From positions 1 to 38,249 of IMG/VR virus record IMGVR_UViG_3300010885_019590: a stretch of DNA of 38,249 nt; one strand, given 5' to 3'. Under the pieces are notes generated by a model. That model worked only from the letters and a program-made list of their open reading frames with translations. It ran no database searches and was not told where the DNA came from. The translations under genes and the position numbers were made by a program. Positions within the stretch are counted from its first letter, which is position 1, and every line of letters begins with the position of its first letter. The DNA is from a virus. This document shows, in pieces, positions 7,140 through 36,593 of this stretch.

Positions 7140-7154
7140 TAGACTACAAGTATG
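7140..7154 (+). promoter_or_regulatory. Leaderless promoter, TAGACT-N6-ATG
   Basis: TAGACT at 7140-7145, six bases, then the ATG at 7152. It is identical in hexamer and spacing to the sites before 5700 and 31275 and lies in the 12-base gap between two virion genes. No Shine-Dalgarno is present. Confidence 0.6.
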
Positions 7155-10100
7155 GCGAAGAAGCCAACCATCACCCATAAGCCTAAGGGCGGAACGCTAG
7201 CGCCACAGTATGGCGCGTCGATGACTCCCGCTTTTATTCAGAGTCACGTTGGTGCTGCTGAGCATCAGGCGCTAAAGGACCTGTATGCGCATCGTACGGG
7301 TGGTGGGGATATTACGACTCAGCCCGACCCGCAGGCGGCGCTTCATGCTGCTGGTTTGATTCATACGCCTAATATTGGTGATGTTCGCTTGACGCATCCA
7401 TCATATGGCGGTCATGCGCCCGTATATGCGAGTGCTGCGGATGCTATTGATGCTTTGAAGAAGAAGCCTAGTGGTGGTGGCGGGTTTTTGGATTCGGTTG
7501 GTGGTGCTCTTAGTTCTGCGGGGGGCGCGCTTGCTGATATTCCGGGTGCTATTGGGAGTATTCCTGTTGGTCCAGCGCTGCATTTGTTTAACCCAATGAC
7601 GCCTAGTGAAGAAAAGAAACTTCGAGCGTCCGGTTCGACGTTGTATGGGTCTAATCTTCTTGGTGGCGCTTTTGAAATGTACACCCGTCCGGGTAAAACG
7701 TTTAGTGATATGAAGAATATGGGGTTGGATACGACTGCGAGTGCGTCTTCGAAGTTGACGTATGACCAGTTGGTGAATCAGCAGAAGAATGCGGCTGATG
7801 CGCAGAAGATGAAGGCGTTTCTTAGTGCGGCTAAGGAGCATAATTCGGGGTCTGATATTCAGGCTGTTCAGGATCAGGTTGCGTTGGGGCCGTTGGGTAA
7901 GCGTAGCCGGTTTATGTTGTTGAAGTTGGCAAAGAAGAATGGTTGGGCGATTGCTGATCCTCGTCAGTATTCTGATGCGGATTTGGCTCGTCGTGCTTTT
8001 ACGATGTCTACGAATGCTGTTTCGGAGGCGCTTGCTAATGCTGCGCGGCAGGAGGGCCAGTTGGCTTCGTTGCCTGCTGGTCTTGTTTCTGTTGCTGGAC
8101 AATTGTTTGATGCGGCTAAGAATGGTGATATTCATAAGGTTGCGAGTATTGGTGAGCAGTTTGTGCAGCCGTATACTTATTATTGGAGTGATGTTCAGAA
8201 GCGCGGGTTTATGCCTGCGACGTCTGCGTTTATTCGTGAGCGTCCTGTGGATGCCGCATTGTTGGCGTCTGGTGCTCTTCATGTTTCGGGTAAGGGTGCT
8301 GGTGCTGCTACTCGTACTATTACGGGTGTTGGCGAGACGCTTCCGCAGCGTGCCATTGCTGCTGTTATTCCTGCTCCTGCTGAGGGGAGTCGGTTGGCTG
8401 CGTTGGGTGAGCGTGCGCGTGTTGGGCGTACGGTTAATGTGGAGCAGCCTCCGCTTCCGGGTCAGGCTCCGCTTGTTACCCGTACTGGTACTACAGGTTC
8501 TAATTTGTTTGGTACTTTGGCGTTGGACGCTAAGGCTTCGCTTGTTTCGCGCGGGTTGCGTTCTGATTCGTCGTTGTTTAGGGGTGCTGCTGAGCGGGTT
8601 GTTAGGAAGCAGTACGATAAGGCGCTTAGTCATATTGCTACTTCTACTGATGCGTCCGGTTTGGCGGCTACGGCACAGTTGCGTAAGTTTGGTGGGCAAC
8701 TTAGTTTTCATCAGCGTGAGCGTCTTATTGCCGAGTTGATGCGGTCTCCGACTGATGCTAGTGGCGCGCTTGTTTCGTTGGGGGATATTGCCAAGATTTG
8801 GTCTGATAAGGCGGCTGCTGCTACTGATAGGGCGCAGGCACAATTGTTTAAGGGTTACGCTGATAGGTATCAGCAACTTGCCGATGTTCCTCTTGACCAG
8901 AGTGTGATTGATGCTGCTCGTAATGTTGCTGCTCCGCTGGTTGCTAGGACGGACACTCTTGCTTCGAGCATGATTGATGCTATTCATGGGATGAGTGATC
9001 CGACGGGTCGTGGTCTTTCTCGTGTGTTTTCGATTAAGTTGCCGGGTCGTAAGAGTAAGGAAATTACTTATGCGGATCTTGCGCCTAATGATGTTATTGA
9101 TATTTCTGGTCCTAGGCCCGCTTCGGCAATAGGTTCTGCGGCAAATGGTGTTGAGAAGCACCCGCCGGTTCCGGCAATTGTTGATTCGATTACGCCTAAC
9201 GCTGACGGGTCGCTAACGATTCACCGTACAAACATTTTGGATCAGCATGATGTTGCTTCGATTACTGTGCAGCCTTCTGATATTGCCGTTAAGGTTGCGG
9301 CTGGTGTTGTCAAGGACAAGTATGTTCGAGACTTTCAGACGTTTGCTCAAGATTTTAATGCTCTTGTTCGGGGTACTAAGGTGCGCGAGCAGGGTCTTGC
9401 TAATGCTGGTGTTGCTCTTCGCAATGCGCCTCGTAGGGCGTTGCTTGCGCTTGATCGTAAGCGTATTCGCAAGGGGACAATGATTGCTTATGCTGCGCGC
9501 AAGATGGATGAGGCTCGTGCTGCGGGGTCGCTTAGTGGTGTTCGTAAGTATGCGCGTATGTATCGCGTTCACGTGCAGGCTTTGACGGTTATTCTTAGGC
9601 GTCAAGAGAAGGCGGCGCTTGCTCTTGGTGAGGGTGATCTTGCGGCTCAGTTGCGTAATGCTCGTATTGGTATTGCTAATACTGCGCGTAAGTATGGGAA
9701 TGATATTACTGAGGCTGATGTTAATGCGATGCTTCAAAATCGAGTGTTGGCTCAGGTTGAGTCGGGTGTTGTTACGCCTGCTGCGCTTCGTAATGTGCAG
9801 CAGCCTGATGCTGTTTCGTTGTTTGAGTCGGCTGCTCGTGTGGATCAGCAGGTTGGTGCGTTGCGTAAGTTGGAACAGCAATTGGTTGCCGAGCGTGCGG
9901 CTGCGCCTAGTGCGGCTCAGGCTAATGCTGCGGCTAAGCGGCTTGCTGAGGTTGATGCTGAGATTAAGTCTCTTGTTGAGCAGTCTCAGGCGGCTCGTGG
10001 CGCTCCTTCCGGGTTTGTTTCTGTGCTTGATAATGTTGAGACGCGTTTTGATGCTGTTCGTAAGGCTGACCAGTTTATTGGTAATCCTAAGGCTGCTGCT

Positions 10101-13100
10101 AATTTTGCTGACAAGTCTAAGGTTGCGTTGCCGAATGTTCTTCGTGTGCTTGGCGATCTTCGCAATAAGACCGATCAAGGCTTGCCGGTTAGTGCGGCTG
10201 ATGTTCAAGCGCTTGTTGCTGCCGAGGCAAGTCTTGTTAAGTTGGAGCGTACGCTTAATGGTTTGAAGTCGTATGCGCCGGATGCGCCGATTGTTAATGC
10301 TGGTAAAAAGACTGCTGCGTTGGCGATTGATACGAGTGTTTCTGGTGACTTGTTGGCGGCTGCTCAGAAGCGTGGAGAGTACGCTGCGACCCTTAACCAG
10401 ACTGTTGCGGATCGAGCGGCTGCGCCGCTTGCCACTGGGTCCAAGGTTGAGGGTTTGGTAACTAGCGTTATTCAAGATATGCGAAGCCGTTTTTGGAATA
10501 AAATTGATCCTACCTTTCGAGAACGTTATTCGGACAAGCGACCGGGGTGGGTTAGTGTTGAGTATGTCCGTGCTGGCGATTTGCGCGGTATGGAGGGTAA
10601 CGCTGTTAGTGATGCAAAAGTTCGCGCTTTGCGTGGGCAAGAATATAACAATCCAATTATTCTTGATTACGACCCAAATACTGGGTATGGGTACGTAAGC
10701 GAAGGGAACCACCGCTTGGCAGCGGCAACGGACAATCAGTTTGTTCCCGTTCAGGTTATTTCGTCAAAACTTATTGACCCAGAAAACTTGTCGGCATCGC
10801 AAATTGGTGCTGGTATGGATAAGATTCCAATGCGTAAACTTACTGATCGGGGTGTGCTTGTCGATCAGAGCAACTACGTTCCGACATACATTTATCCTCA
10901 CGAAATTGGGCTTTCTGTTAGCGAGTCTATTGTTGGGGTTGGCAAGCCTTCCCTTCGTCCAATTTCAAGTGGCCCTGTTTCGATTGTGACTGTGCGTAGG
11001 TTGCGGCGCGAGGCTGAGCACGCTTCGAAGATGATGAGGAATGAGGCTATTCGTATTATGAAGCGTGGTCGTCCCGTACTTGCGACTCCTCAAATTAGTG
11101 CGGCTCTTGATGCTGCGAGTGGTAGTATTGCCGTGACGTTGCAGTTGGAAAAGAATGTTGTGTTTACAATGAAGCGTTTGCGGGGCGAGTCTGAGGCTGC
11201 GTTTGTTGCGCGTGGTGAGATGCTTATGTATGTTCCGACTGCGGTTAAGGTTACGGGTCGTCGGGCGCGTCGTGCTGCTGAAACTAAGAACATTGATGCC
11301 CTTGCAGGGGCTGGTCTTCCCAAGGGGCGGCTTATGAAAAACACTGGCGCACAGTATGCGGCTGGTCAAGAGGATCTTGCTAATTTGTTTAGGCGTTCTA
11401 TTGGTGCTGCTGGCGCGATTGTTGGTAGTCATAATTGGACGCAGCAGATGCGGGGCTTTCTTGATGCGTCTTTTTATCATGGCAATATTGGAACTGATGT
11501 TTTTAATGAGATCACGCAGACGGCTAATGATTGGGTTGTGTTTTCTGCTGATCGTCGTATCAGTATTCCTAACGATATTCATGTTGGTTCTGCCTCGTTG
11601 GAGAACATGCCAAATGCCTCTCTTGCAGACTTGTTTTCTCGTGTAGTGGGCGAAGAAAAGAACTCTGCTTTGATTGCTGCTGGTGGGGATTATTATGTGA
11701 TTCCACGCTACTTGTATGAGGATATGACAAAGAAGTTGGCTGATATTTCTTATCGGCCTACTGGCGGGCTGGCTGTTGCGGACAAGATGACTAGGGTGTG
11801 GCGTACGTTTACGCTAAACATTATTCCTCGTACGGGTACGGCAAACCTTGGTGGTAGCGCGATTCTTGCGGCTCTTGCCGGGTGTGGTCCGCGCGCGTTC
11901 TATATGGCGTACAAGGAGTTGTGGCACGATCTTGGTACTGCGCCAAAGTATTTGCAGCAGGGCTATGGTGCGCAGTTTACGAACGAGGCGTCGTTTGCGG
12001 GTATTCGCAGTCGGCTTCCCACGGCAAGTATTCCGGTTCCGGGTCTTAAGGCTGGGCTTAGTTTAGATATTCCGTTTGCGGCTTTGGCGTGGTGGATGAA
12101 TACGATGCGTCGCTTTAACGGCATCAGTGAAGACTTTGGTCGTCTCGCTGTCTATTATTCGAAGGCTATCCCCGCTGCTGAGCGTGCGACTAATACGTCG
12201 TTCTGGACGAGTGGCAGGATTCTTAGCAATGAGGCGCAGAAGTATTTGGAGATGCTTGCTGCTGAGGTGCCAAACAATCCGGCTATTGCTGAGCAGGCTG
12301 CTGCGTTTACGGATCATGCTTTTCAATGGTTGGGTGATCTTCATGCGGGCGGTTCGGCTAATACAACGCTGCGTATTCTTATTCCGTTCCACCAGTGGTA
12401 CCGTCATATTATTCGTTTGACGTTTGTAACGATGCCGCTTCATTATCCGGGGCGCGCATTGTTCTTGCAGCGTTTGGGTGATCTTGGTCACGAGTATCTG
12501 ATTGCTCATGGTGTGTATCCGGGCTGGATGATGGATGTGCTCCCAATCATGATGGAAGAAAAAATGATTAATAATGTTCCGCAGCAGTACATCATGGCGT
12601 GGCATACGGGTTCCCTTAATCCGTTCTCGACAACGGCACAACTTGCTAGTGGCACGGACACGCAGGCCATTAATTGGCTTGCTGGCATGGCTAACCCGAT
12701 GATTAAGGGCATGTTTGAGATTGGGTTTAGTGCCATTCAGGGTGGTGGTGGCAAGGCGCAGCAGATTGGTGGTGCTCATTTGTTGCAGGACGTTAAGAAT
12801 CAGGATGGTAATCCGATTGGTGCGTACACGGGTGAAGGGTTGCAGTATTACTTGAATACGGTGCAGCAGATGATGCCGTTGTCTACGCTTGCGGTGACTA
12901 CTTCTGGTCAGGCTGCTGATGGTAACTTGTTGTGGAACCAGTCGGATAAGTTGTTGCGTGGTTCGGGTGGTGCAATGCCGTTGAAGTTTCGTCCGCAGCA
13001 GGCCGTTGGTGATGTTCCGGGCCGCGACTTGTTGCAATTGGTGACTGACTTTTCTTCGAATAATGCTTTGGCCATGACTGCGCGCATGTTGTTTGGCGGT

Positions 13101-13304
13101 TCGCCTACGTGGATCACGAGTCATGGTCCGGTTGAGAAGTCGCAGTTTGCTGCGGCTATGAATAATCTAATTGCGACGTATAAGAAAGAGTTGCGCAATA
13201 CGATGAAGACGAAGAATATTATTTCTCAACAGATGAACTCTGGTCAGCCGGTTGCGCCTGTAGTTGAAATGCAAGCGCCAGCGATTGCGAATCCTAATGG
13301 GTAA
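7152..13304 (+). CDS. Giant internal virion (ejection) protein with ParB-like domain
   Basis: 2050 residues, the largest gene. The N-terminal half is helical with Ala/Gln/Lys coiled coils (around residues 700-870 and 890-960). Residues about 1097-1210 hold a ParB/sulfiredoxin-like domain: a VSVEYVRAGDLR strand, a PIILDYD strand, and the signature EGNHRLAAA at 1184-1192, the conserved GxxR-type nucleotide-binding loop. The C-terminal third is helical with hydrophobic stretches (for example ILAALAGCGPRAFYMAY) and may interact with membrane. Such multidomain proteins are known as polyvalent or ejected proteins that enter the cell with phage DNA. It sits last in the virion gene run, as T7 gp16-type proteins do. 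Codon style changes sharply across the ParB-like domain. Confidence 0.65.
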   Translation: MAKKPTITHKPKGGTLAPQYGASMTPAFIQSHVGAAEHQALKDLYAHRTGGGDITTQPDPQAALHAAGLIHTPNIGDVRLTHPSYGGHAPVYASAADAIDALKKKPSGGGGFLDSVGGALSSAGGALADIPGAIGSIPVGPALHLFNPMTPSEEKKLRASGSTLYGSNLLGGAFEMYTRPGKTFSDMKNMGLDTTASASSKLTYDQLVNQQKNAADAQKMKAFLSAAKEHNSGSDIQAVQDQVALGPLGKRSRFMLLKLAKKNGWAIADPRQYSDADLARRAFTMSTNAVSEALANAARQEGQLASLPAGLVSVAGQLFDAAKNGDIHKVASIGEQFVQPYTYYWSDVQKRGFMPATSAFIRERPVDAALLASGALHVSGKGAGAATRTITGVGETLPQRAIAAVIPAPAEGSRLAALGERARVGRTVNVEQPPLPGQAPLVTRTGTTGSNLFGTLALDAKASLVSRGLRSDSSLFRGAAERVVRKQYDKALSHIATSTDASGLAATAQLRKFGGQLSFHQRERLIAELMRSPTDASGALVSLGDIAKIWSDKAAAATDRAQAQLFKGYADRYQQLADVPLDQSVIDAARNVAAPLVARTDTLASSMIDAIHGMSDPTGRGLSRVFSIKLPGRKSKEITYADLAPNDVIDISGPRPASAIGSAANGVEKHPPVPAIVDSITPNADGSLTIHRTNILDQHDVASITVQPSDIAVKVAAGVVKDKYVRDFQTFAQDFNALVRGTKVREQGLANAGVALRNAPRRALLALDRKRIRKGTMIAYAARKMDEARAAGSLSGVRKYARMYRVHVQALTVILRRQEKAALALGEGDLAAQLRNARIGIANTARKYGNDITEADVNAMLQNRVLAQVESGVVTPAALRNVQQPDAVSLFESAARVDQQVGALRKLEQQLVAERAAAPSAAQANAAAKRLAEVDAEIKSLVEQSQAARGAPSGFVSVLDNVETRFDAVRKADQFIGNPKAAANFADKSKVALPNVLRVLGDLRNKTDQGLPVSAADVQALVAAEASLVKLERTLNGLKSYAPDAPIVNAGKKTAALAIDTSVSGDLLAAAQKRGEYAATLNQTVADRAAAPLATGSKVEGLVTSVIQDMRSRFWNKIDPTFRERYSDKRPGWVSVEYVRAGDLRGMEGNAVSDAKVRALRGQEYNNPIILDYDPNTGYGYVSEGNHRLAAATDNQFVPVQVISSKLIDPENLSASQIGAGMDKIPMRKLTDRGVLVDQSNYVPTYIYPHEIGLSVSESIVGVGKPSLRPISSGPVSIVTVRRLRREAEHASKMMRNEAIRIMKRGRPVLATPQISAALDAASGSIAVTLQLEKNVVFTMKRLRGESEAAFVARGEMLMYVPTAVKVTGRRARRAAETKNIDALAGAGLPKGRLMKNTGAQYAAGQEDLANLFRRSIGAAGAIVGSHNWTQQMRGFLDASFYHGNIGTDVFNEITQTANDWVVFSADRRISIPNDIHVGSASLENMPNASLADLFSRVVGEEKNSALIAAGGDYYVIPRYLYEDMTKKLADISYRPTGGLAVADKMTRVWRTFTLNIIPRTGTANLGGSAILAALAGCGPRAFYMAYKELWHDLGTAPKYLQQGYGAQFTNEASFAGIRSRLPTASIPVPGLKAGLSLDIPFAALAWWMNTMRRFNGISEDFGRLAVYYSKAIPAAERATNTSFWTSGRILSNEAQKYLEMLAAEVPNNPAIAEQAAAFTDHAFQWLGDLHAGGSANTTLRILIPFHQWYRHIIRLTFVTMPLHYPGRALFLQRLGDLGHEYLIAHGVYPGWMMDVLPIMMEEKMINNVPQQYIMAWHTGSLNPFSTTAQLASGTDTQAINWLAGMANPMIKGMFEIGFSAIQGGGGKAQQIGGAHLLQDVKNQDGNPIGAYTGEGLQYYLNTVQQMMPLSTLAVTTSGQAADGNLLWNQSDKLLRGSGGAMPLKFRPQQAVGDVPGRDLLQLVTDFSSNNALAMTARMLFGGSPTWITSHGPVEKSQFAAAMNNLIATYKKELRNTMKTKNIISQQMNSGQPVAPVVEMQAPAIANPNG

Positions 13305-17337: not shown

Positions 17338-17573
17338 GTAGTCACGCGCCAGTAACAATTGACGAGTTACTTCCGGCTCTAATCGCTGCCGTCCAAGAAG
17401 AACGCGAGTATGAAGTTCTGCTGGAAGAATGGAGCAGTAATACGTGGGCGCTTGAACCGGGTGAAGCCGAGGGCCTGCGGCCCCTGAAGCCGCGCGGCCC
17501 TGTGCTAACAAGTTCGGCAATGCTGGATATAGTCAACGAGATTATTCGGATGCGAAAGTTGTTGGCAACATGA
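17334..17573 (+). CDS. Hypothetical 79-residue protein
   Basis: Unrecognised acidic helical protein (IDELLPALIAAVQEEREYE, then a terminal helix). ATGA overlaps on both sides place it firmly in the operon. An in-frame start further upstream is possible, but the overlap with the RecT-like stop favours 17334. Confidence 0.65.
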   Translation: MSSHAPVTIDELLPALIAAVQEEREYEVLLEEWSSNTWALEPGEAEGLRPLKPRGPVLTSSAMLDIVNEIIRMRKLLAT

Positions 17574-18229
17574 TTGTCGAAGACGAACACGGACCAGTCA
17601 CCATCAGCCGGGGAGCAACGATAGAAGACACAGCCATCATTATTGGGCCAGCATTCATTGGCGAAGACGCATACATCGGGCACGGTGCCGTTATTGGAGC
17701 ACCGCCCCAGTATCGTGGCGTCTACCCATCCCCAGTAACCGGCAAGCGTTTCCACAGGGGAGTACGCGTTGGCAACGATGCTTGTGTCAGAGAACTTGTA
17801 CAGATTCATCAAGGCATTCTTTTCGAAACGTATGTTGGGGACGACACGCTACTAATGGCGGGGTGTCACATTGGTCACGATAGTGAAATTGGAAGCAACT
17901 GTAGCCTCGCCCCATTCTCCTTGCTTGCGGGTCATACGATTCTTTGTGATGGTGTGACGTTCGGGCAGGGAGTGATTACGCACCCGTGGGTAATCGTTGG
18001 AGAACACGCCATGATTGGCTTAAACAGTGGGGTTCTTGACGATGTTTTGCCGTATCAGAAAGTTGTTGGTTCTCCCGCTAAGTTGATTGGCAAGAACACT
18101 GGCGCAATGGGCATTCGGAAAGGGTGGGATCTTCACGATCTTGACACGGAAGTGGTAAAGCGGTATGTTGCTGTTCGAGTACGGCGAGACAATAATAAGA
18201 AACTAATGAAGGAGTTGATGGAGCGATGA
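17570..18229 (+). CDS. LpxA-like left-handed beta-helix acyltransferase
   Basis: 219 residues with hexapeptide repeats ([LIV]-G-x4) over residues 10-160, and the LpxA-type landmarks: VIGAPPQ at 41-47, ACVRELVQIHQG at 71-82, LLMAGCHIGHD at 94-104 and LPYQKVVGSPA at 160-170. H100 and H103 match the histidine pair near the LpxA active site (H122 and H125 in the E. coli enzyme). LpxA transfers an acyl chain from acyl carrier protein to UDP-GlcNAc; relatives acylate amino sugars. The C-terminal helix is basic. Finding it in a phage recombination operon is odd. If the host is an actinobacterium there is no lipid A, so a different sugar substrate is more likely. Confidence 0.82.
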   Translation: MIVEDEHGPVTISRGATIEDTAIIIGPAFIGEDAYIGHGAVIGAPPQYRGVYPSPVTGKRFHRGVRVGNDACVRELVQIHQGILFETYVGDDTLLMAGCHIGHDSEIGSNCSLAPFSLLAGHTILCDGVTFGQGVITHPWVIVGEHAMIGLNSGVLDDVLPYQKVVGSPAKLIGKNTGAMGIRKGWDLHDLDTEVVKRYVAVRVRRDNNKKLMKELMER

Positions 18230-19439: not shown

Positions 19440-19879
19440 TGCGGGCGACAATCCTTATTGTCATAGCGTGCATTATCTGCATAATTCTCGCCCTGTTTTC
19501 GCCAGAGTTCGCCATGCCATCGACAAGACCATCACCAGCCACTAGGAACGACACTCTTTACCCGCCCCACTACAAGACGTTCATTGCTATCGCCAAGTGT
19601 GAGCAGCCGTCTCGTAATGGTGGCGGGTGGCACGGCATTGCGTGGCACCAAGAATACAATTGGAGTTTTCGTGGCGGAATGGGAATGACTGGTTTGAATT
19701 GGAGCGACTTCAAACGCAAGGGACAGCCGGACAACATGGCTAAGGCTAGTCCGGTTGAACAATTGTGGGCTGCATGGCGACTCTATAAATGGGCAAACAA
19801 GACGTATCCGGGCAATGGGTACACGGCGTGGCTATGCAGTCCACTCGTCGGTTTCTCCGGAGAGGGGACGTGGAAATGA
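19439..19879 (+). CDS. Secreted Rpf-like / transglycosylase-like cell-wall enzyme
   Basis: 146 residues. Residues 3-22 form a hydrophobic signal or anchor. The rest resembles the lysozyme-like resuscitation-promoting-factor domain: IAKCEQ with candidate catalytic E55, a glycine-rich turn with FRGGMGMTG, then SPVEQLWAAWRLY and GYTAWLCS. C54 and C133 can form the usual disulfide. Such enzymes cleave the glycan backbone of peptidoglycan and are characteristic of actinobacteria and their phages. It is unusual for it to sit between ssb and an oxidoreductase gene instead of in the lysis block; an early or long-term effect on the host wall is conceivable. Confidence 0.7.
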   Translation: MRATILIVIACIICIILALFSPEFAMPSTRPSPATRNDTLYPPHYKTFIAIAKCEQPSRNGGGWHGIAWHQEYNWSFRGGMGMTGLNWSDFKRKGQPDNMAKASPVEQLWAAWRLYKWANKTYPGNGYTAWLCSPLVGFSGEGTWK

Positions 19880-20802
19880 GAGTCATCCTCGTTGGCAATG
19901 GTTACTTCGGTTCGCTGTATCGCAAGCGAATGATGAGTAACCCGGAGTTCAAGGTCGTCGGCATTGTCGAGCCGAACTACGAGAACTTCAAGGACTTGCG
20001 TGGCGCTACCATCGGGCACGATTACGAGACGCTAGCGAAGAACGTTGAGCATGATGCTGTTGTGATCGCCACGCCGCCGTCTATGCACCGTAGCGTCGCG
20101 TATGCGGCGATGCTGAATGGAAAGCACGTCTTGTGTGCAAAGCCGGGGGCGCTCTGTATGGAGGACGTGTACTTCTTACATGGCGTCGCTAACTCTGTAG
20201 GTGTTTTCTTTATGGTGGACTACACGTCACTCTGGTCGCCAGAAAGCGACTTCATAGACCAGCAGATTGATGCAATGGTCGCAACACCAACAAGCATGAT
20301 GAGTGCAAGATTCGTATCAACCCCAGCAAAACAAGAGGGCGCTATCTGGGACTTGCTATGCCACGACGTAGCCCTCTATCACTACCACTTCTACCACGAG
20401 CGCCCCACAAGCGTCGAGTGCGAGACTAAGGGGAACGACACGACGGCACTTATCATTTCTGATAAGCGCGAAGTGGCGTACATGAAAGCATCATACGAAT
20501 CTAAAAGTCCACAAAAGAACATCACAATTGGCTTAGACGTGTCGGGGGGCATGACGAATCCGTACGTGAAGTTGCACTGGAACCAAGAGCAACGCTTTGT
20601 ATCTGTCCAGTCGCAGGGCAGGTCTGTTGACTTCTACTTCAAGCACGACCCCGACCCAATCACACTAGCCCTCAATCGTTTGCTGAAGGAAAGGTATATG
20701 GCAGTTGAACACCTTAGGCGTCACGCTTATGTGACAAGTATCCTGCACGCCATGCAACACTCCGCCAACAATGGTGGCCTTCGCGTTCGGCTCGGCTCGT
20801 GA
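19876..20802 (+). CDS. Gfo/Idh/MocA-family NAD(P)-dependent oxidoreductase
   Basis: 308 residues. The N-terminal Rossmann fold has GNGYFG at 7-12, VVIATPP at 62-68 and the CAKPG motif with K89-P90, equivalent to the EKP loop of this family. The C-terminal domain has WDLLCHDV with D158 and H162, in the position of the catalytic D...H pair. These enzymes oxidise sugars, often at C3 of a nucleotide sugar. The sequence is shortened compared with typical members of about 330-350 residues. ATGA overlap with the Rpf-like gene sets the start. With the LpxA-like gene nearby it suggests amino-sugar modification. Confidence 0.8.
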   Translation: MRVILVGNGYFGSLYRKRMMSNPEFKVVGIVEPNYENFKDLRGATIGHDYETLAKNVEHDAVVIATPPSMHRSVAYAAMLNGKHVLCAKPGALCMEDVYFLHGVANSVGVFFMVDYTSLWSPESDFIDQQIDAMVATPTSMMSARFVSTPAKQEGAIWDLLCHDVALYHYHFYHERPTSVECETKGNDTTALIISDKREVAYMKASYESKSPQKNITIGLDVSGGMTNPYVKLHWNQEQRFVSVQSQGRSVDFYFKHDPDPITLALNRLLKERYMAVEHLRRHAYVTSILHAMQHSANNGGLRVRLGS

Positions 20803-26846: not shown

Positions 26847-27014
26847 GGTGATGATGATTTTTATGGGTGGTCGGAGTGGGTGTTTCGTTGTGTGTTTGAG
26901 GATTCTCCTCGTCGTGTGTTGCGTGTCTTTGCTGCGTGCGAGTATGATGCGTGGGTGTCGTTTAGTTTGTTGACTGGTATTAGGGTTAATCTTGAAGGGT
27001 TGGAGCACTGGTGA
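26844..27014 (+). CDS. Small acidic-start protein before TerS, 56 aa
   Basis: MGDDD start followed by an aromatic-rich helix (WSEWVFRCVFE) and a second helix. Its TGA overlaps the GTG of the TerS-like gene. The leaderless promoter fixes the start. Unknown function; packaging-related by position. Confidence 0.6.
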   Translation: MGDDDFYGWSEWVFRCVFEDSPRRVLRVFAACEYDAWVSFSLLTGIRVNLEGLEHW

Positions 27015-27571
27015 CGAAGCGTGCGGATTTGAAGCAGGTTCGGGATGATAAGGCTGTGTTGGAGGATTCGTATGGTCTTGGTAAGGATGATTTTCTTGTG
27101 AAGAATTATTTGCCGTCGCGTACTATTGGCGAGTTGTCGGTTGAGCAGATGGATGAGGCTATTGAGATGGCGCGTCTTGGTGCGTTTGAGGCGGCTATTG
27201 CGCGTGTGCTTGGTGTTGATGAGGCTGTGTTTTTGTCGGCTTTGAAGAAGGGGAAGGATGGTAAGACGGGGCATGGTGGTACGAGTGTTGAGCGTGTCAA
27301 GTTTGCTCGTAAGTTTTATGATGCTCGTAAGGAGCATATGAAGAAGAATCTGAGGATTATTAGTGAGGCGGCTGATGAGGGTGATTGGAAGCCTGCGGCG
27401 TGGCAGTTGGAGCGTTCGTTTGGGTTTCATAAGCAGGAGCGTGTGGAGGTTGAGGCTGGTCCACAGATTTTGTCGTTGATGCAGTTGGCTCAGATCCCGA
27501 TTGAGGAGGCTCGTGCTGCGTTGGAGATTCCTAGTGAGAATGTTATCGTTGAGTCTGATGGTGCGGCGTGA
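27011..27571 (+). CDS. Terminase small subunit-like protein
   Basis: 186 residues. A helix-turn-helix lies around residues 57-85 (GAFEAAIARVLGVDEAVFLSAL), a central charged helix follows, then DWKPAAWQLERSFGFHKQERV, the WxxAAWxLER motif common to small terminase subunits. TerS binds the packaging site and loads TerL. Position two genes before terL agrees. A general DNA-binding regulator of similar build is the alternative. Confidence 0.65.
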   Translation: MTKRADLKQVRDDKAVLEDSYGLGKDDFLVKNYLPSRTIGELSVEQMDEAIEMARLGAFEAAIARVLGVDEAVFLSALKKGKDGKTGHGGTSVERVKFARKFYDARKEHMKKNLRIISEAADEGDWKPAAWQLERSFGFHKQERVEVEAGPQILSLMQLAQIPIEEARAALEIPSENVIVESDGAA

Positions 27572-28090: not shown

Positions 28091-29671
28091 GTGGACGACC
28101 AGCAGCGCCAAGCATTAGAGTTACGCACCAAAATGGCGGACCCAGTGTGGAAAGCCAAGAACCTGTTTGGTTTTGATCCGTGGAGTAAACAACAAGAAAT
28201 CCTCAAAGCCCTCCGCAAACACAAGCGTGTTGCTGTGCGGAGTTGCCACGGAATTGGAAAGACGGCCACTGCTGCCACTGCTGTTCTAGATTTTATGACA
28301 GAAGGACCATGCCGCGTAATCACTACCGCACCAACGTGGAGTCAGGTCGAGCAACTCCTCTGGCGCGAAATAGCGGTACGCCACTCCAAGATCCCCGGCG
28401 GCAAAGACGCCTTCGGCAAAATGTTCAAGTCGAGCCTTGAAGTTAGGTCGGACTGGTTCGCTATGGGACTTTCGACGGATAAGCCTGAAAGATTCCAAGG
28501 TCATCATGCCCCTCGTATGATGCTCGTCGTTGACGAAGCAAGTGGCATTGATGAGGCTATCTACGAAGCGTCCGAGGGTTTCCTTACCGCTGATGAAGCG
28601 CGCGTACTCTTGATTGGGAACCCGACTAGGCCAGCGGGAACGTTCTATAAGGCGTTCCAAAAGGATTCTAATTGGTATCAGGTTCATGTTAGTGCGTTTG
28701 ATGCTCCTTGTTATACGGGCGAACGAGTGTCTAAAGAGGCCGAACGCGCCCTAATTACGCAAGAATGGGTGCAGGACGCCAAACAACAGTGGGGTGAAGA
28801 CTCTGCTGCGTACAAGATTCGCGTTTTGGGCGAGTTTTCGGAAACAACGGGACGCCAATACTTCCAATTTTTAGAAAAAATCGTCCCAACAGAGCCAAGA
28901 AAACGCGGTTTTGTGCGCGGAATGCCCGTTCCCGGCGGCAGAGTAGAGTTTTATGATGATTCTAAGGGTGGAATGCGCATGTGGGAGTTGCCAAAAACAG
29001 GCGTAGGCTACCTAATTTTTGCGGATGTTGCGGGATCAGTGTCATTTGACGAGTATGAACGTCGAGAATCACGTATTGGGTCGGGTGCGGGGTCGGATTA
29101 CTCTGTAGCAGAAGTGCTACGCCAAGATACTGGCGAGCAGGTAGCCGAAATCCGGTATCGGGCCAACGTAGACGAGTTTGCAGATGATCTCGCCCGATTA
29201 GGACGCCTCTATAATGATGCAATAATCGCAGTAGAACGCAACGGACCGGGAACGGCCGTCCTAACCCAACTAAAGAACACAATGGGGTACCCGCGCATCT
29301 GGCGTCCACGCAATCCCATCGGCGTAAACTCGAATCTAGACCTAACGCTAGGCTGGAACACGACAAGCGCCACAAGGCCCCTGATGCTAAGCGCTTTGCA
29401 GGCTGCCATTCGTGACGAGCCACACCGAATTAAAAGCGAAGCGCTTATTGATGAGATTCGCACGTTCGTATTCCGCGACCGTAATGGCAAGGAGCCGCGC
29501 CCAGAGGCAGACGAGGGTTGTCACGATGATCTTGTGATGGCGATGGGTGGTGCGCAGGCTGTGTGGCAGCAAGAGTGCACTACGCCTATCAGGTTGGCGG
29601 AACGTAAGAAGCCTGAGCCGCAGTCTAATCTTCAGAAGCGCGCGCCACGTTTTGTTCTTGGGAAGCGTTAG
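28091..29671 (+). CDS. terL: Terminase large subunit
   Basis: 526 residues. ATPase domain: SCHGIGKT at 51-58 is the Walker A loop (Ser in place of the usual first Gly), MMLVVDEAS at 143-151 is Walker B with D148/E149, and LLIGNPTR at 173-180 is the coupling motif. The nuclease domain begins near LIFADVAG, continues with AVERNGPG and ends with EGCHDDLVMAMG, giving the acidic residues of the RNase H-like site. It drives DNA into proheads and cuts concatemers. GGAG five bases before the GTG sets the start. Codon use is more A/C-rich in the first two-thirds than in the end of the gene. Confidence 0.93.
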   Translation: MDDQQRQALELRTKMADPVWKAKNLFGFDPWSKQQEILKALRKHKRVAVRSCHGIGKTATAATAVLDFMTEGPCRVITTAPTWSQVEQLLWREIAVRHSKIPGGKDAFGKMFKSSLEVRSDWFAMGLSTDKPERFQGHHAPRMMLVVDEASGIDEAIYEASEGFLTADEARVLLIGNPTRPAGTFYKAFQKDSNWYQVHVSAFDAPCYTGERVSKEAERALITQEWVQDAKQQWGEDSAAYKIRVLGEFSETTGRQYFQFLEKIVPTEPRKRGFVRGMPVPGGRVEFYDDSKGGMRMWELPKTGVGYLIFADVAGSVSFDEYERRESRIGSGAGSDYSVAEVLRQDTGEQVAEIRYRANVDEFADDLARLGRLYNDAIIAVERNGPGTAVLTQLKNTMGYPRIWRPRNPIGVNSNLDLTLGWNTTSATRPLMLSALQAAIRDEPHRIKSEALIDEIRTFVFRDRNGKEPRPEADEGCHDDLVMAMGGAQAVWQQECTTPIRLAERKKPEPQSNLQKRAPRFVLGKR

Positions 29672-29672
29672 G

Positions 29673-29687
29673 TATAGTGTTCGTATG
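29673..29687 (+). promoter_or_regulatory. Leaderless promoter, TATAGT-N6-ATG
   Basis: TATAGT at 29673-29678, six bases, then the ATG at 29685, directly after the terL stop. Confidence 0.6.
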
Positions 29688-29876
29688 AAGCAGCCCGTTC
29701 CCGAATCGCAATACAAAGAAGGCAACTTTAAGAAACTTGCTGCGAGTCTTGCGAAGAAAGGTACTCGTGACCCGAATGCGCTTGCTGCTTGGATTGAGCG
29801 TCGCAAGTATGGCGCTAAGGGATGGAAGCATATTCAGGCTAAGGGTCGTGCTGCTGCGAAGGCAAAGGGCAAGTAA
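29685..29876 (+). CDS. Basic 63-residue protein
   Basis: Lys/Arg/Ala-rich. The segment DPNALAAWIERRKYGAKGW resembles a short helical motif found in many small phage proteins encoded near terminase or head genes. The leaderless promoter fixes the start at 29685; an earlier in-frame ATG lies inside terL. Its stop overlaps the Dps-like ATG. It may bind DNA. Confidence 0.6.
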   Translation: MKQPVPESQYKEGNFKKLAASLAKKGTRDPNALAAWIERRKYGAKGWKHIQAKGRAAAKAKGK

Positions 29877-30556
29877 TGGCTCCGATTGACCGCATCAAAA
29901 AAAAGAACAACACAACCATTAGTATCGCGCTAATGAAAATGAAGCCCATGTCGCACGACAAAGCACAAATGGATGCCATGTCGAATCCGCAAAGCGACAT
30001 GAACATGTCCATGCAGAACGACACAAACAATACGGACGCAACGCCAACCAAAAACACTACACCCCGAAACGCAACACCAACCGACACAAACCAAAACGAT
30101 ACTCAAAGTGGAACAAACACCACCAATACGGGGCCAGAAACGCAAGGCGCGCTTGCCGTTGAACTACAAGACTTGTTAGATAATGTCTCTGAGTATTACA
30201 TTACTGCTCACCAGTTTCACTGGAACGTTGTCGGCCCAGACTTTGCAGAGTTCCACAAGTTCTTTAATAAGATTTATAATGATGCGTGGAATTCGCTCGA
30301 TGGACTTGCGGAGAATATTCGCAAACTAGACCAGATGGTTGATATTCAGTTTGGTCAACCAGACCAGTGCAATAATGTGCAAGAAATGCTTGGTTGCCTT
30401 AGCGACATGAACACGGCGCTTATTGACCAGTACAAGAATACGATTGATTGTGCCGATAAGTATCGAGAACAAGGCATTCTTAATTTTCTTGCTGATCGTC
30501 TCGATACGCATCAGATGTTTCAGTGGCAAATTAGTTCGTTCCTTAAGTCGGCATGA
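29876..30556 (+). CDS. Dps-like ferritin with long disordered N-terminal extension
   Basis: 226 residues. Residues 91-226 match the Dps four-helix bundle: HQFHWNVVGPDF, then EFH, then LDGLAENI. H115, H127, D142 and E146 fall at the spacing of the ferroxidase residues H51, H63, D78 and E82 of E. coli Dps; the residue matching D67 is N131. Dps proteins form dodecamers that oxidise iron and bind DNA. The first 90 residues are unusual: basic start, Met-rich middle, then Asn/Thr-rich low complexity. ATG overlaps the previous stop. The location between terL and portal suggests it is made with virion parts and may be packaged. Codon style of the extension is A/C-rich, unlike the ferritin domain. Confidence 0.85.
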   Translation: MAPIDRIKKKNNTTISIALMKMKPMSHDKAQMDAMSNPQSDMNMSMQNDTNNTDATPTKNTTPRNATPTDTNQNDTQSGTNTTNTGPETQGALAVELQDLLDNVSEYYITAHQFHWNVVGPDFAEFHKFFNKIYNDAWNSLDGLAENIRKLDQMVDIQFGQPDQCNNVQEMLGCLSDMNTALIDQYKNTIDCADKYREQGILNFLADRLDTHQMFQWQISSFLKSA

Positions 30557-30571
30557 TAGGATAATGGCATG
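30557..30571 (+). promoter_or_regulatory. Leaderless extended -10 promoter, TGA-TAGGAT-N6-ATG
   Basis: TAGGAT at 30557-30562, with TG one base upstream, six bases, then the ATG at 30569. It begins right after the Dps stop. Confidence 0.6.
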
Positions 30572-30985
30572 AGTGTTCCTCCAAGCATGATGGGTGCCGG
30601 TCCAATGATTCCGCCGCCCCCAACGGGCGCTCCTATGGCTCCTCCGATGGGTGCGCCCATGGGTGCTCCTGCTCCGGGCGGAATGGTTCCTCCTGCTGTT
30701 GCAGCGCTTCCGGGTGTTAGCCAGTTGGCGCAGGCTCAGACGATGCAGATGATGGATCATCAGCGTCAGATGCAGATCATGCAAGAGGAAATGCAGAAGC
30801 AGATCATGATGCTTGTTGCGTCGCTTCCTACGGCTAATCCGGCTGGCGAGGCGGCTGTGTCTACACCGATGAGTCCAATGATGAGTGGTAGCAATACGGA
30901 CACGGGTGGCGCTCCTGCTACTCCGGCTATGCCGATGCCCCCCACTCCTCCTAGTGTGATGGGTGGTGCTCCTAGTGCCCACTAA
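30569..30985 (+). CDS. Met/Pro/Gln-rich low-complexity protein
   Basis: 138 residues. N-terminal Pro/Met/Gly/Ala repeats (PMGAPMGAP), a central Met/Gln helix (QMMDHQRQMQIMQEEMQKQ), then another Met/Pro tail. Met content is exceptional. No fold is recognisable. Position among virion genes suggests a structural or scaffolding part; metal or oxidant handling next to the Dps-like protein is a looser idea. Confidence 0.6.
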   Translation: MSVPPSMMGAGPMIPPPPTGAPMAPPMGAPMGAPAPGGMVPPAVAALPGVSQLAQAQTMQMMDHQRQMQIMQEEMQKQIMMLVASLPTANPAGEAAVSTPMSPMMSGSNTDTGGAPATPAMPMPPTPPSVMGGAPSAH

Positions 30986-32690: not shown

Positions 32691-34409
32691 ATGATTGAAT
32701 CTTCCGACCCGAAGAAACTCCTAGACCGCTTCCAAAAATGCTGGTCTCAGTCCTACTCCAAACACACACAAAACTGCGAGTTCTACAAAAAGTGTGACGA
32801 CGGATATAATGCAGTCATCAAACCATCCAGCAGCGAATGGCAATCTGACTTGCACCCACCGTATGCGCTCCAGATCATTGACATTATCGAATCCAACATT
32901 GTTGACGATGAGCCCGATGTGCGCGTTATTGCGGCCCAGCCCCAGTACGCAGAGGGCGCCGACATGCTTACGCACATCCTTAAACAACAACGCTACAAAG
33001 ATAACTTTGGTGAAAAGTATTCGCTCTTTGTCAAGCAAGCCCTTATTCGTGGCATTAGTGTGGCGAAGATTCCGTGGCTAGAAGAGTGGCGCAAGGTTCC
33101 AACGCCGAATTATAAGCCTGATCCGCTTGGTATGCGGAAGCCGTACGAGACGGTGCCGCATCGTCAACAGCCGGGTTTCGTCAATGTAGACATGAATCAT
33201 TTTTTGTGGGACCCGAACGCCACAAGTATTGATGATGCTGAGTACGTGTTCTTTCGAACGTACGAGTCTAAGCGTAGCCTTGAAGCGTCGGGTGTGTACG
33301 AGAATCTTGACAAGATTGAGGACATGCAAAACATTGTTGCCACTGACGATAAGGAGCGGCGCAATCGTGTAGAAGTTGTTGAGTGGTGGTGGCGTGACGG
33401 TAACATGATGCGCCTTACTGTGCTTGCCAACCGGAACACGATTATTCGTGATTGTGCTAGTCCGTTTTGGCATGGAGAGTTCCCGTTTGTTGTGGCGAAC
33501 ATTATGCCGCAGGCTTTCTCGTTTCGTGGTAAGAGCATGGTTGAAATTATTAGTGATTTGCAGATTGCGTTGTGGGAACTTCAGAATCAGCGCATTGATA
33601 ACTCTAAGTTTATGGCTAATGCTGCGATGTTTGTTGATCCTAATACGGATCAGCAGGACATTCGTTTGTATCCGGGGGCCGTGATTCCGCTTAGGCCGGA
33701 TCAGGTGCAGGCGTGGGTGCCTAACATTAGTATTCTCCAGCCGTCTGTGCAGGCCGAGGAAATGCTTAAGGGTGATTTGCAGAACATTACGGGTGCCGTT
33801 GGTTACTTATCGGGTGCTTCTGGCACGCAGATTGACCAGACAACGGCGACCGGTATTTCGGTCATTAGCAACATGGCTGCTAAGCGCATCATTCGGATGA
33901 AGCAGCAGATTATGTATGCGATGCGCCGCGCCGGGGAACAGCAGATTGCGTTGAATCAGCAGTTACTTCCGGGGCCGGTCGCCGTTCGTATTGATAAAGA
34001 GTCTGAGAATGATTGGCGTATTGTTACGCCGACTGATATTCAGGGACAGTACGATTTTCGAGTTGAGGATGCGAACGAGTCGCTTATGCGGCAGGAGCGT
34101 CGAGCGGAAGCCTTGGCGTTTGCTAACTGGTTTGGGCAGAACTATGCGCTTCTTACTCAGAGTGGGGTTACTCCAAATATGCGTCGAGTTGCAGAAGATG
34201 TGATTCAGGCGTTTGACGAAGATCCGAAAGAATATCTTGGCGAGGCCGGAGCGGACCCAATGCAAGTGCAGAACCCGCCTTTGGTCGGAGGGCCGGGTCA
34301 GTCACAGCCGGGACCGACAACCCCAATGGGTGCCGCGTCTGGGCCCCCCGCGATTCCGCCGGGGATCTTTGCTGCGCTCGGGGCCGGTTCCGGCCTATCT
34401 AAACCTTAA
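32691..34409 (+). CDS. Portal protein
   Basis: 572 residues. The N-terminal half has YALQIIDIIESNIVDDEPDV and the long region to YVFFRTYESK typical of podovirus-type portals that lack a separate head-tail fusion. The middle has RGKSMVEIISDLQIALWELQNQRIDN, the conserved stem and clip region, followed by a Gln-rich crown helix. The last 60 residues are Pro/Gly-rich and disordered. It forms the dodecameric ring for DNA entry and exit. It lies upstream of scaffold and capsid genes, as expected. Confidence 0.85.
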   Translation: MIESSDPKKLLDRFQKCWSQSYSKHTQNCEFYKKCDDGYNAVIKPSSSEWQSDLHPPYALQIIDIIESNIVDDEPDVRVIAAQPQYAEGADMLTHILKQQRYKDNFGEKYSLFVKQALIRGISVAKIPWLEEWRKVPTPNYKPDPLGMRKPYETVPHRQQPGFVNVDMNHFLWDPNATSIDDAEYVFFRTYESKRSLEASGVYENLDKIEDMQNIVATDDKERRNRVEVVEWWWRDGNMMRLTVLANRNTIIRDCASPFWHGEFPFVVANIMPQAFSFRGKSMVEIISDLQIALWELQNQRIDNSKFMANAAMFVDPNTDQQDIRLYPGAVIPLRPDQVQAWVPNISILQPSVQAEEMLKGDLQNITGAVGYLSGASGTQIDQTTATGISVISNMAAKRIIRMKQQIMYAMRRAGEQQIALNQQLLPGPVAVRIDKESENDWRIVTPTDIQGQYDFRVEDANESLMRQERRAEALAFANWFGQNYALLTQSGVTPNMRRVAEDVIQAFDEDPKEYLGEAGADPMQVQNPPLVGGPGQSQPGPTTPMGAASGPPAIPPGIFAALGAGSGLSKP

Positions 34410-35423: not shown

Positions 35424-36593
35424 ATGCCTACCATCCTTACTGGGGTAGTTGACGACGCGGATATTCTGTCCAATCAGCGTGTCGTTGATATGTCCCCCAC
35501 CATCGCCATGCTTGAGCCTGATGAGGCTCCGCTTACGACGATGCTCCAGAAGACAAGTAAGCGCGCTGCTTACTCGCAGAAGGTCGAATGGTTGTCGGAC
35601 GAACTTGTCCCACGCCTGACGACGCTTGCTGCTTCGGCAACTTCGGCAGCCACTGCTCTATCGGTTGCCACCGGTACTGGTCAGTATTTTCGTCCCGGCG
35701 ATGTTATTCGCATTTCTACCACGGGCGAGAATTGTGCCATCAGTGCCGTAACTGGTGATACGTTGAACCTTGTTAGTCGTACCCTTGGTGGTACGAGTGG
35801 TGTTACGTCTATTTCCGCTGCTAGTGGCGTGGATGTAATCAAGGTCGGTAATGCTGCTGCTGAGGGTGCAACTCTCGGTACGCTCATTCAGACCAAGAAG
35901 GTCGCTAACTTCAACTACGCGCAGATTCAGCGTGACCCGTGGGGCTTTACGAACACGTTGGTTGCGTCGAAGTTGTACGGTGGTCCTGAGCCTGCTAATG
36001 AGGCGAAGAAGAAGTTGATCGAGCATAAGCGTCAGATTGAAAACACTCTATTCTGGGGCACGCGCGATCTGGTTACGACTGGTTCGTCTCCGATTGGTTA
36101 TGTCGGTGGTGTTTATCAGTACGTTACTTCTAACATCACGTCAAGCGTTGGCGCTCTCACAGAGGCAATCTTTGAGACGTTCCTTCGCAAGGCATTCCGT
36201 TACGGTTCGCAGAACAAGGTTATGTTCTGCTCGCCTATCGTCGCTTCGGCACTGTCTAGTTTCCCGCAGGGTAAACTGGCTCCGCCGTCCCCGTCGATTG
36301 ACACGTACGGTGTGTCGCTGAGTAAGTACCAGTCCGCTTCGGGCGCAATGGTTGACATTGCGATCAAGCGTGATTGGTATGACTTCCAGACAACCGGAAA
36401 CCAGTACGGCGGCATTGGTGTCGTTCTCGATATGAGCGACATTACGATGCGTCCGCTGCGAGATACGGTTCTGAAGCCGGATCGTCAGGCGAACGATGAG
36501 GACTCCATTAAGCAGGAGTACCTTACCGAGTGGTCGCTTGAGTTGGGCCTTGAGAAGAAGCACGCTATCATCTCTGGCATCACCGGCTACTAA
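35424..36593 (+). CDS. Major capsid protein (SU10 / DUF5309-like HK97 fold)
   Basis: 389 residues. The N-terminus has SPTIAMLEPDEAPLTTML, then a beta-rich insertion (residues 70-150, Ser/Thr/Gly-rich), then KKLIEHKRQIENTLFWG, the long spine helix, and later FRYGSQNKVMFCSP. This order is that of the SU10-type major capsid proteins often found with podovirus-like portals. High use of common codons and a strong downstream hairpin suggest abundant expression. No delta-domain protease is evident nearby; the separate scaffold gene upstream is consistent. Confidence 0.85.
   Translation: MPTILTGVVDDADILSNQRVVDMSPTIAMLEPDEAPLTTMLQKTSKRAAYSQKVEWLSDELVPRLTTLAASATSAATALSVATGTGQYFRPGDVIRISTTGENCAISAVTGDTLNLVSRTLGGTSGVTSISAASGVDVIKVGNAAAEGATLGTLIQTKKVANFNYAQIQRDPWGFTNTLVASKLYGGPEPANEAKKKLIEHKRQIENTLFWGTRDLVTTGSSPIGYVGGVYQYVTSNITSSVGALTEAIFETFLRKAFRYGSQNKVMFCSPIVASALSSFPQGKLAPPSPSIDTYGVSLSKYQSASGAMVDIAIKRDWYDFQTTGNQYGGIGVVLDMSDITMRPLRDTVLKPDRQANDEDSIKQEYLTEWSLELGLEKKHAIISGITGY

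Follow-up and report, generated by a model that had tools for sequence, protein, structure and literature searches.

Why does a phage carry a gene for a Dps-type ferritin among the genes for its head, and would the product act in the particle or in the infected cell? The question is raised by a 38,249-nucleotide stretch of DNA from an aquatic uncultured phage (IMG/VR record IMGVR_UViG_3300010885_019590; the whole stretch is hereafter called the window), in which the open reading frame at 29876-30556 on the + strand is a genuine gene for a Dps fusion protein of 226 aa.

A Dps-type gene within a phage head operon

An earlier note, made from the sequence alone, had placed this gene between terL and the portal gene. 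The PHROGs and Pfam matches of the flanking genes bear this out and identify the region as a late head cassette. The terL gene lies 5' of the Dps gene with one 63-aa gene in between, and four small genes separate the Dps gene from the portal gene. The features of the region are as follows.

27011..27571, + strand: terminase small subunit (phrog_4102, 5.8e-11)
28091..29671, + strand: terminase large subunit, TerL (phrog_2, 9.7e-38)
29685..29876, + strand: gene for a 63-aa basic protein, the stop of which shares one base with the Dps start (TAATG)
29876..30556, + strand: fusion gene, consisting of a conserved N-terminal tag, a variable linker and a Dps-type mini-ferritin domain
29876..29953, + strand: conserved basic N-terminal tag, residues 1-26, MAPIDRIKKKNNTTISIALMKMKPMS, also present on non-Dps proteins that sister phages encode at this locus
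29986, + strand: position to which tag conservation extends, at about residue 37
29987..30142, + strand: variable low-complexity linker, residues 38-89 (pLDDT about 50-55)
30143..30553, + strand: Dps domain, residues 90-226, with helices at 90-117, 123-150, 168-195 and 199-225
30218..30313, + strand: ferroxidase residues H115 (30218-30220), H127 (30254-30256), D142 (30299-30301) and E146 (30311-30313)
30266-30268, + strand: N131, the variable fifth ferroxidase position
30326..30376, + strand: shortened B-C loop, residues 151-167, in which the BC helix is not predicted
30569..30985, + strand: Met/Pro-rich small protein directly 3' of the Dps gene, conserved in sister phages
32691..34409, + strand: portal protein, SU10 type (PF23899, 1.9e-32)
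35424..36593, + strand: major capsid protein (MCP), SU10 type (PF17236, 9.2e-45)

The position within this late head operon is conserved, the order terL, small genes, tagged gene, Met/Pro-rich gene, portal and MCP being kept in sister contigs. Elsewhere in the window, a 2050-aa open reading frame (7152-13304) matched nothing in Pfam or PHROGs at the thresholds applied. Judged by eye, the products of 17570-18229 and 19789-20802 resemble a hexapeptide-repeat acyltransferase and an oxidoreductase, respectively, and these two are perhaps sugar-modifying genes carried by the phage.

The C-terminal domain is a divergent Dps-type mini-ferritin

The earlier assignment of the protein as a Dps-like ferritin was confirmed by both sequence and predicted structure. 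Residues 97-224 matched the Pfam family Ferritin (PF00210, E 1.1e-18), residues 95-224 matched phrog_3636 (8.5e-19), and the closest solved relatives by sequence were Dps chains in the PDB (best, 4.8e-11). Structure prediction, which the note had proposed as a check, gave a Dps-type bundle: in the AlphaFold model, residues 90-226 formed a confident four-helix bundle (pLDDT 91-98) with an unstructured extension, and PDB Dps entries were the top Foldseek matches. With VIA-align, a mini-bacterioferritin (Z 22.4) and 2qqy (22.1) scored slightly above MrgA (20.7); the ranking is close, other ferritins and Dps differing by no more than about 2 Z units.

The four ferroxidase residues H115, H127, D142 and E146, equivalent to H51, H63, D78 and E82 of E. 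coli Dps, do occur at Dps spacing as had been noted from the sequence. These H, H, D and E ligands were invariant in 85 viral Dps domains, fused forms included, a count that contains some near-identical loci. Judging by the conserved ligands, the window's Dps may well oxidise iron. N131 was correctly located at the position of the acidic fifth ligand, D67 of E. coli, which is thus absent; it is not a notable feature, since this position is free to vary across the same 85 domains (E 22, G 18, S 13, Q 11, L 8, A 6, N 4, D 3) and does not discriminate among viral Dps. The idea that N131 marks a special loss of function was rejected in view of this drift.

The region between the second and third helices departs from the usual Dps pattern. 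The interval from R149 to M171 comprises 23 residues versus 31-39 in 46 other viral Dps, making the loop at least 8 residues shorter, and the B-C loop was modelled as coil, the short BC helix of Dps not being predicted. For this reason, we describe the domain as a divergent Dps-type mini-ferritin. Without a BC helix, the dimer interface typical of Dps could be weakened. The window's Dps may assemble into a shell. Three cysteines (Cys165, Cys174 and Cys192) are conserved in the window's group and nearly absent elsewhere. The dN/dS of the Dps domain was about 0.1 where dS was not saturated (window versus its close relative L003: dN 0.098, dS 0.94), indicating that the domain is under strong purifying selection. 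One scan of genome contigs for a cellular donor, with strict motifs, returned a single match with 35% identity (L122).

Two parts of the N-terminal extension

The 89-residue extension consists of a conserved tag, covering the first ~26-37 residues, and a variable linker. The earlier description of 90 low-complexity residues therefore holds for the middle of the extension (about residues 38-89) and fails for the conserved module before it. Likewise, the "Met-rich and Asn/Thr-rich tail" is indeed Met-rich (9 Met in 87 residues) but lies at the N-terminus, and its richness in Asn and Thr is private to the window genome. The different codon style that had been remarked on was evident: AAC/AAT usage was 10:3 in the extension versus 102:176 in the phage structural genes (Fisher p 0.006), and AAA/AAG and CAA/CAG usage was likewise shifted.

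The first 26-37 residues recur in close relatives (L003, L004/L005, L007 and L025), with the consensus MAPLDKLKKKNxPTVSIALMRMKPMS...DAMS, and are followed there by linkers of differing length and composition. In the Dps-bearing sisters, the linker has an acidic net charge of -7 to -12, and the first 26 residues remain basic (+4 to +5) and conserved. The Dps domain itself is acidic as well (net -11 to -16). The tag was predicted at low confidence in the model, and the extension had no credible match in Pfam or PHROGs.

Two C-terminal partners of one N-terminal tag

A search with the window's portal protein as query yielded 39 sister contigs. Where their flanks were readable, the gene order was terL, small basic genes, tagged gene, Met/Pro-rich gene, portal, putative scaffold and capsid. 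In most of these sisters, the tagged gene encodes only 93-108 aa and ends with a CPKCAxYQMLIGEAL helix in place of Dps. An independent search with the tag only brought up 39 contigs; at the same locus, 33 of them carry the CPxC version and 6 the Dps version. The CPxC element is a helix of ~30 residues without a ferroxidase site; the model of this variant was not confident (pLDDT 61), and no relative of the CPxC version was found in the phage collection. This other partner of the tag, seen at L010 7091-7414 and in 32 other contigs, is a short acidic protein. We also searched for the tag as a general label on several phage proteins, and did not find it as such: among the fetched loci no genome has a second copy, and the single one is always at this locus. 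Six sisters (L032-L036 and L043) are without the tagged gene, which is thus dispensable in some lineages.

On the terL tree, the tagged gene switched between the Dps and non-Dps states at least five times, and on the portal tree at least twice; both trees were built from short searches and have several open forks. Since the same tag at the same locus has two partners and the state changed repeatedly, Dps appears as an exchangeable C-terminal "head" on a fixed tag. Presumably, the C-terminal part was exchanged repeatedly through recombination while tag and locus stayed. Two alternative C-terminal elements thus share one N-terminal module, and partner exchange at a head locus suggests that this module could be a prohead address.

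Exchange with a small CPxC element that lacks a ferroxidase site would also suit a structural or assembly part, in which the Dps bundle serves as a scaffold-like or decoration oligomer and its iron chemistry is incidental; the altered B-C loop and the group-specific cysteines fit such a part too. However, the iron ligands do not vary in any viral Dps examined, even in fused forms, and we consider this the least probable of the readings discussed here.

In sisters (L003 2581-2901 and L004 1081-1401), a phrog_2859 domain has a gene of its own, situated between terL and the tagged gene. In L046, L050, L052 and L055, it lies inside the Dps fusion protein; the window has no phrog_2859.

Dps fusions to head proteins in other viruses

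A Dps-domain profile search of viral contigs gave at least 566 related loci, the best 80 of which were fetched. Twelve of the 85 domains examined share their polypeptide chain with both a HAD-type phosphatase domain and a Peptidase_S78 prohead protease. In L089, a single protein (7359-9371) joins a HAD/polynucleotide-phosphatase-like part, Dps and Peptidase_S78 between the portal and major head genes, the order being terL, portal, HAD-Dps-S78 and major head protein. The same fusion was observed in L052, L055, L063, L085, L088, L091, L095, L101, L106, L108 and L110. Furthermore, Dps is joined to a portal/protease-type (head-protease-type) protein in L050 (3726-8948) and L116 (26-2677), and to phrog_2859 and a zeta-toxin-domain minor head protein in L046 (2807-5827). 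In L099 (7956-9998), Dps is fused with DUF5824.

Fusion of a viral Dps to a head-assembly protein arose at least three more times outside the window's group. The domain tree, with modest support, contains at least four changes between head-linked and stand-alone forms. The remaining viral Dps are stand-alone, some away from head genes; head linkage is therefore recurrent, not universal. In the literature searched, which included few subscription papers, we found no earlier report joining Dps with a prohead protease and no prior description of an exchangeable tag.

Where the protein may act

Phage Dps have been encountered in particle preparations before. Dps of the podophage Privateer was detected by mass spectrometry with CsCl-purified virions (PMC7881722), so a virion-associated phage Dps is not new in itself, and the Dps of SU10, the product of a middle gene, was detected in its phage preparation (PMC4281155). 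The Dps genes of Privateer and BUCT695 lie among replication/nucleotide genes; in view of these positions and of that of the SU10 middle gene, virion detection there could be carry-over.

The reading that we prefer, and regard as probable if only just, is a late, prohead-targeted mini-ferritin that protects the packaged genome. The protein would have two parts: the short conserved tag would address it to the assembling prohead, and the Dps-type mini-ferritin, borne on the flexible linker, would be its exchangeable cargo. Expressed late, together with the capsid genes, the protein would be incorporated into the particle or attached to it; its ferroxidase sites would bind and oxidise iron there and consume peroxide, resulting in less Fenton damage to the genome during or after packaging. 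The tag, the parallel fusions in other viruses and, by analogy, the Privateer precedent suggest that the protein may be present in the virion.

The main rival is a late-expressed cytoplasmic Dps, recombined into the late operon, that sequesters iron and peroxide and shields replicating or packaging DNA in the infected cell without being a virion component. Its tag would then have a different role, for instance in binding terminase, the DNA or the product of a neighbouring gene. The N-terminus of E. coli Dps is Lys-rich and binds DNA, and the basic N-terminus of the window's protein resembles it. The cultured-phage Dps genes, in replication/nucleotide modules or among middle genes, agree with this account, as does the view of gut and Lactobacillus phage Dps as support of the host under oxidative stress. 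However, it leaves unexplained the same N-terminus on a non-Dps protein as well as the fusions of Dps to prohead proteases and portal-type proteins, and the Dps found with purified Privateer virions speaks against it. We judge this rival unlikely.

The earlier note had proposed a virion-borne Dps that coats or protects DNA in the capsid or enters the cell to guard phage DNA. The virion half of this idea gains support from the tag shared with non-Dps proteins at the head locus, from the head-protein fusions and from Privateer. The cell-entry half is weaker, because an assembled Dps dodecamer, ~9 nm across, is too wide for the portal channel and should not pass it. Co-injection, in which packaged Dps subunits would leave through the portal along with the DNA and protect the newly entered genome inside the host, is compatible with the head-gene position and the fusions to head proteins. 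On size grounds, injection is less likely for an assembled shell, so that subunits could pass only before assembly or in an unfolded state; moreover, no ejection-protein features were found. We consider co-injection very unlikely.

Until now, the Dps genes of phages have been regarded as strays that support the host. A tag found on a different protein as well, together with the recurrent joining of Dps to head-assembly enzymes, points instead to a role within the particle, and the question whether virions carry iron-oxidising, DNA-protecting enzymes becomes directly testable.

Comparison with known systems

Like the window, Privateer and SU10 encode a Dps; theirs are stand-alone, tag-free and located among replication or middle genes. 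On the domain tree, the Dps of Privateer and BUCT695 are far from the window's domain. The portal and capsid families matched by the window's proteins are named after SU10. The Dps of gut "Gratiaviridae" phages, phage-encoded as in the window, is noted as an anti-oxidant gene and read as host protection during infection in the part of that report consulted, which mentions neither a tag nor a head-protein fusion (PMC8008677).

Cellular Dps (PA0962, 8ff9; MrgA, 2chp; Listeria innocua Dps, 1qgh) have in common with the window's domain the four-helix bundle and the H/H/D/E set with its spacing. The window's protein differs from them in having no predicted BC helix, an Asn at the fifth position, three group-specific cysteines, the 89-residue extension and a place in a phage head operon. 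In overall shape, the closest structures were the Methanoperedens mini-bacterioferritin 9qq5 and 2qqy (136 and 139 residues aligned), and the alignments span the region without a BC helix; identity was only 15-18%, whereas the ligand set of the window's domain is of the Dps type.

Encapsulins and T4 capsid-targeting sequences offer a likeness of another kind. In both systems, a short terminal peptide steers unrelated cargo into an HK97-fold shell, and encapsulin cargo includes ferritin-like proteins. The likeness is one of concept, with no sequence relation claimed, and the window's tag would be a putative targeting element of this sort. We tentatively propose, with considerable doubt, that a swappable N-terminal address tag loads a ferritin-like protein into an HK97-fold capsid as a viral counterpart of encapsulin ferritin loading, that the Dps-prohead-protease fusions of other aquatic phages are a second solution to the same problem, and that protecting packaged DNA from iron and peroxide is common among virions. 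If true, this would link the capsids of phages to encapsulins, whose shells have the same HK97 fold and enclose ferritin-like cargo.
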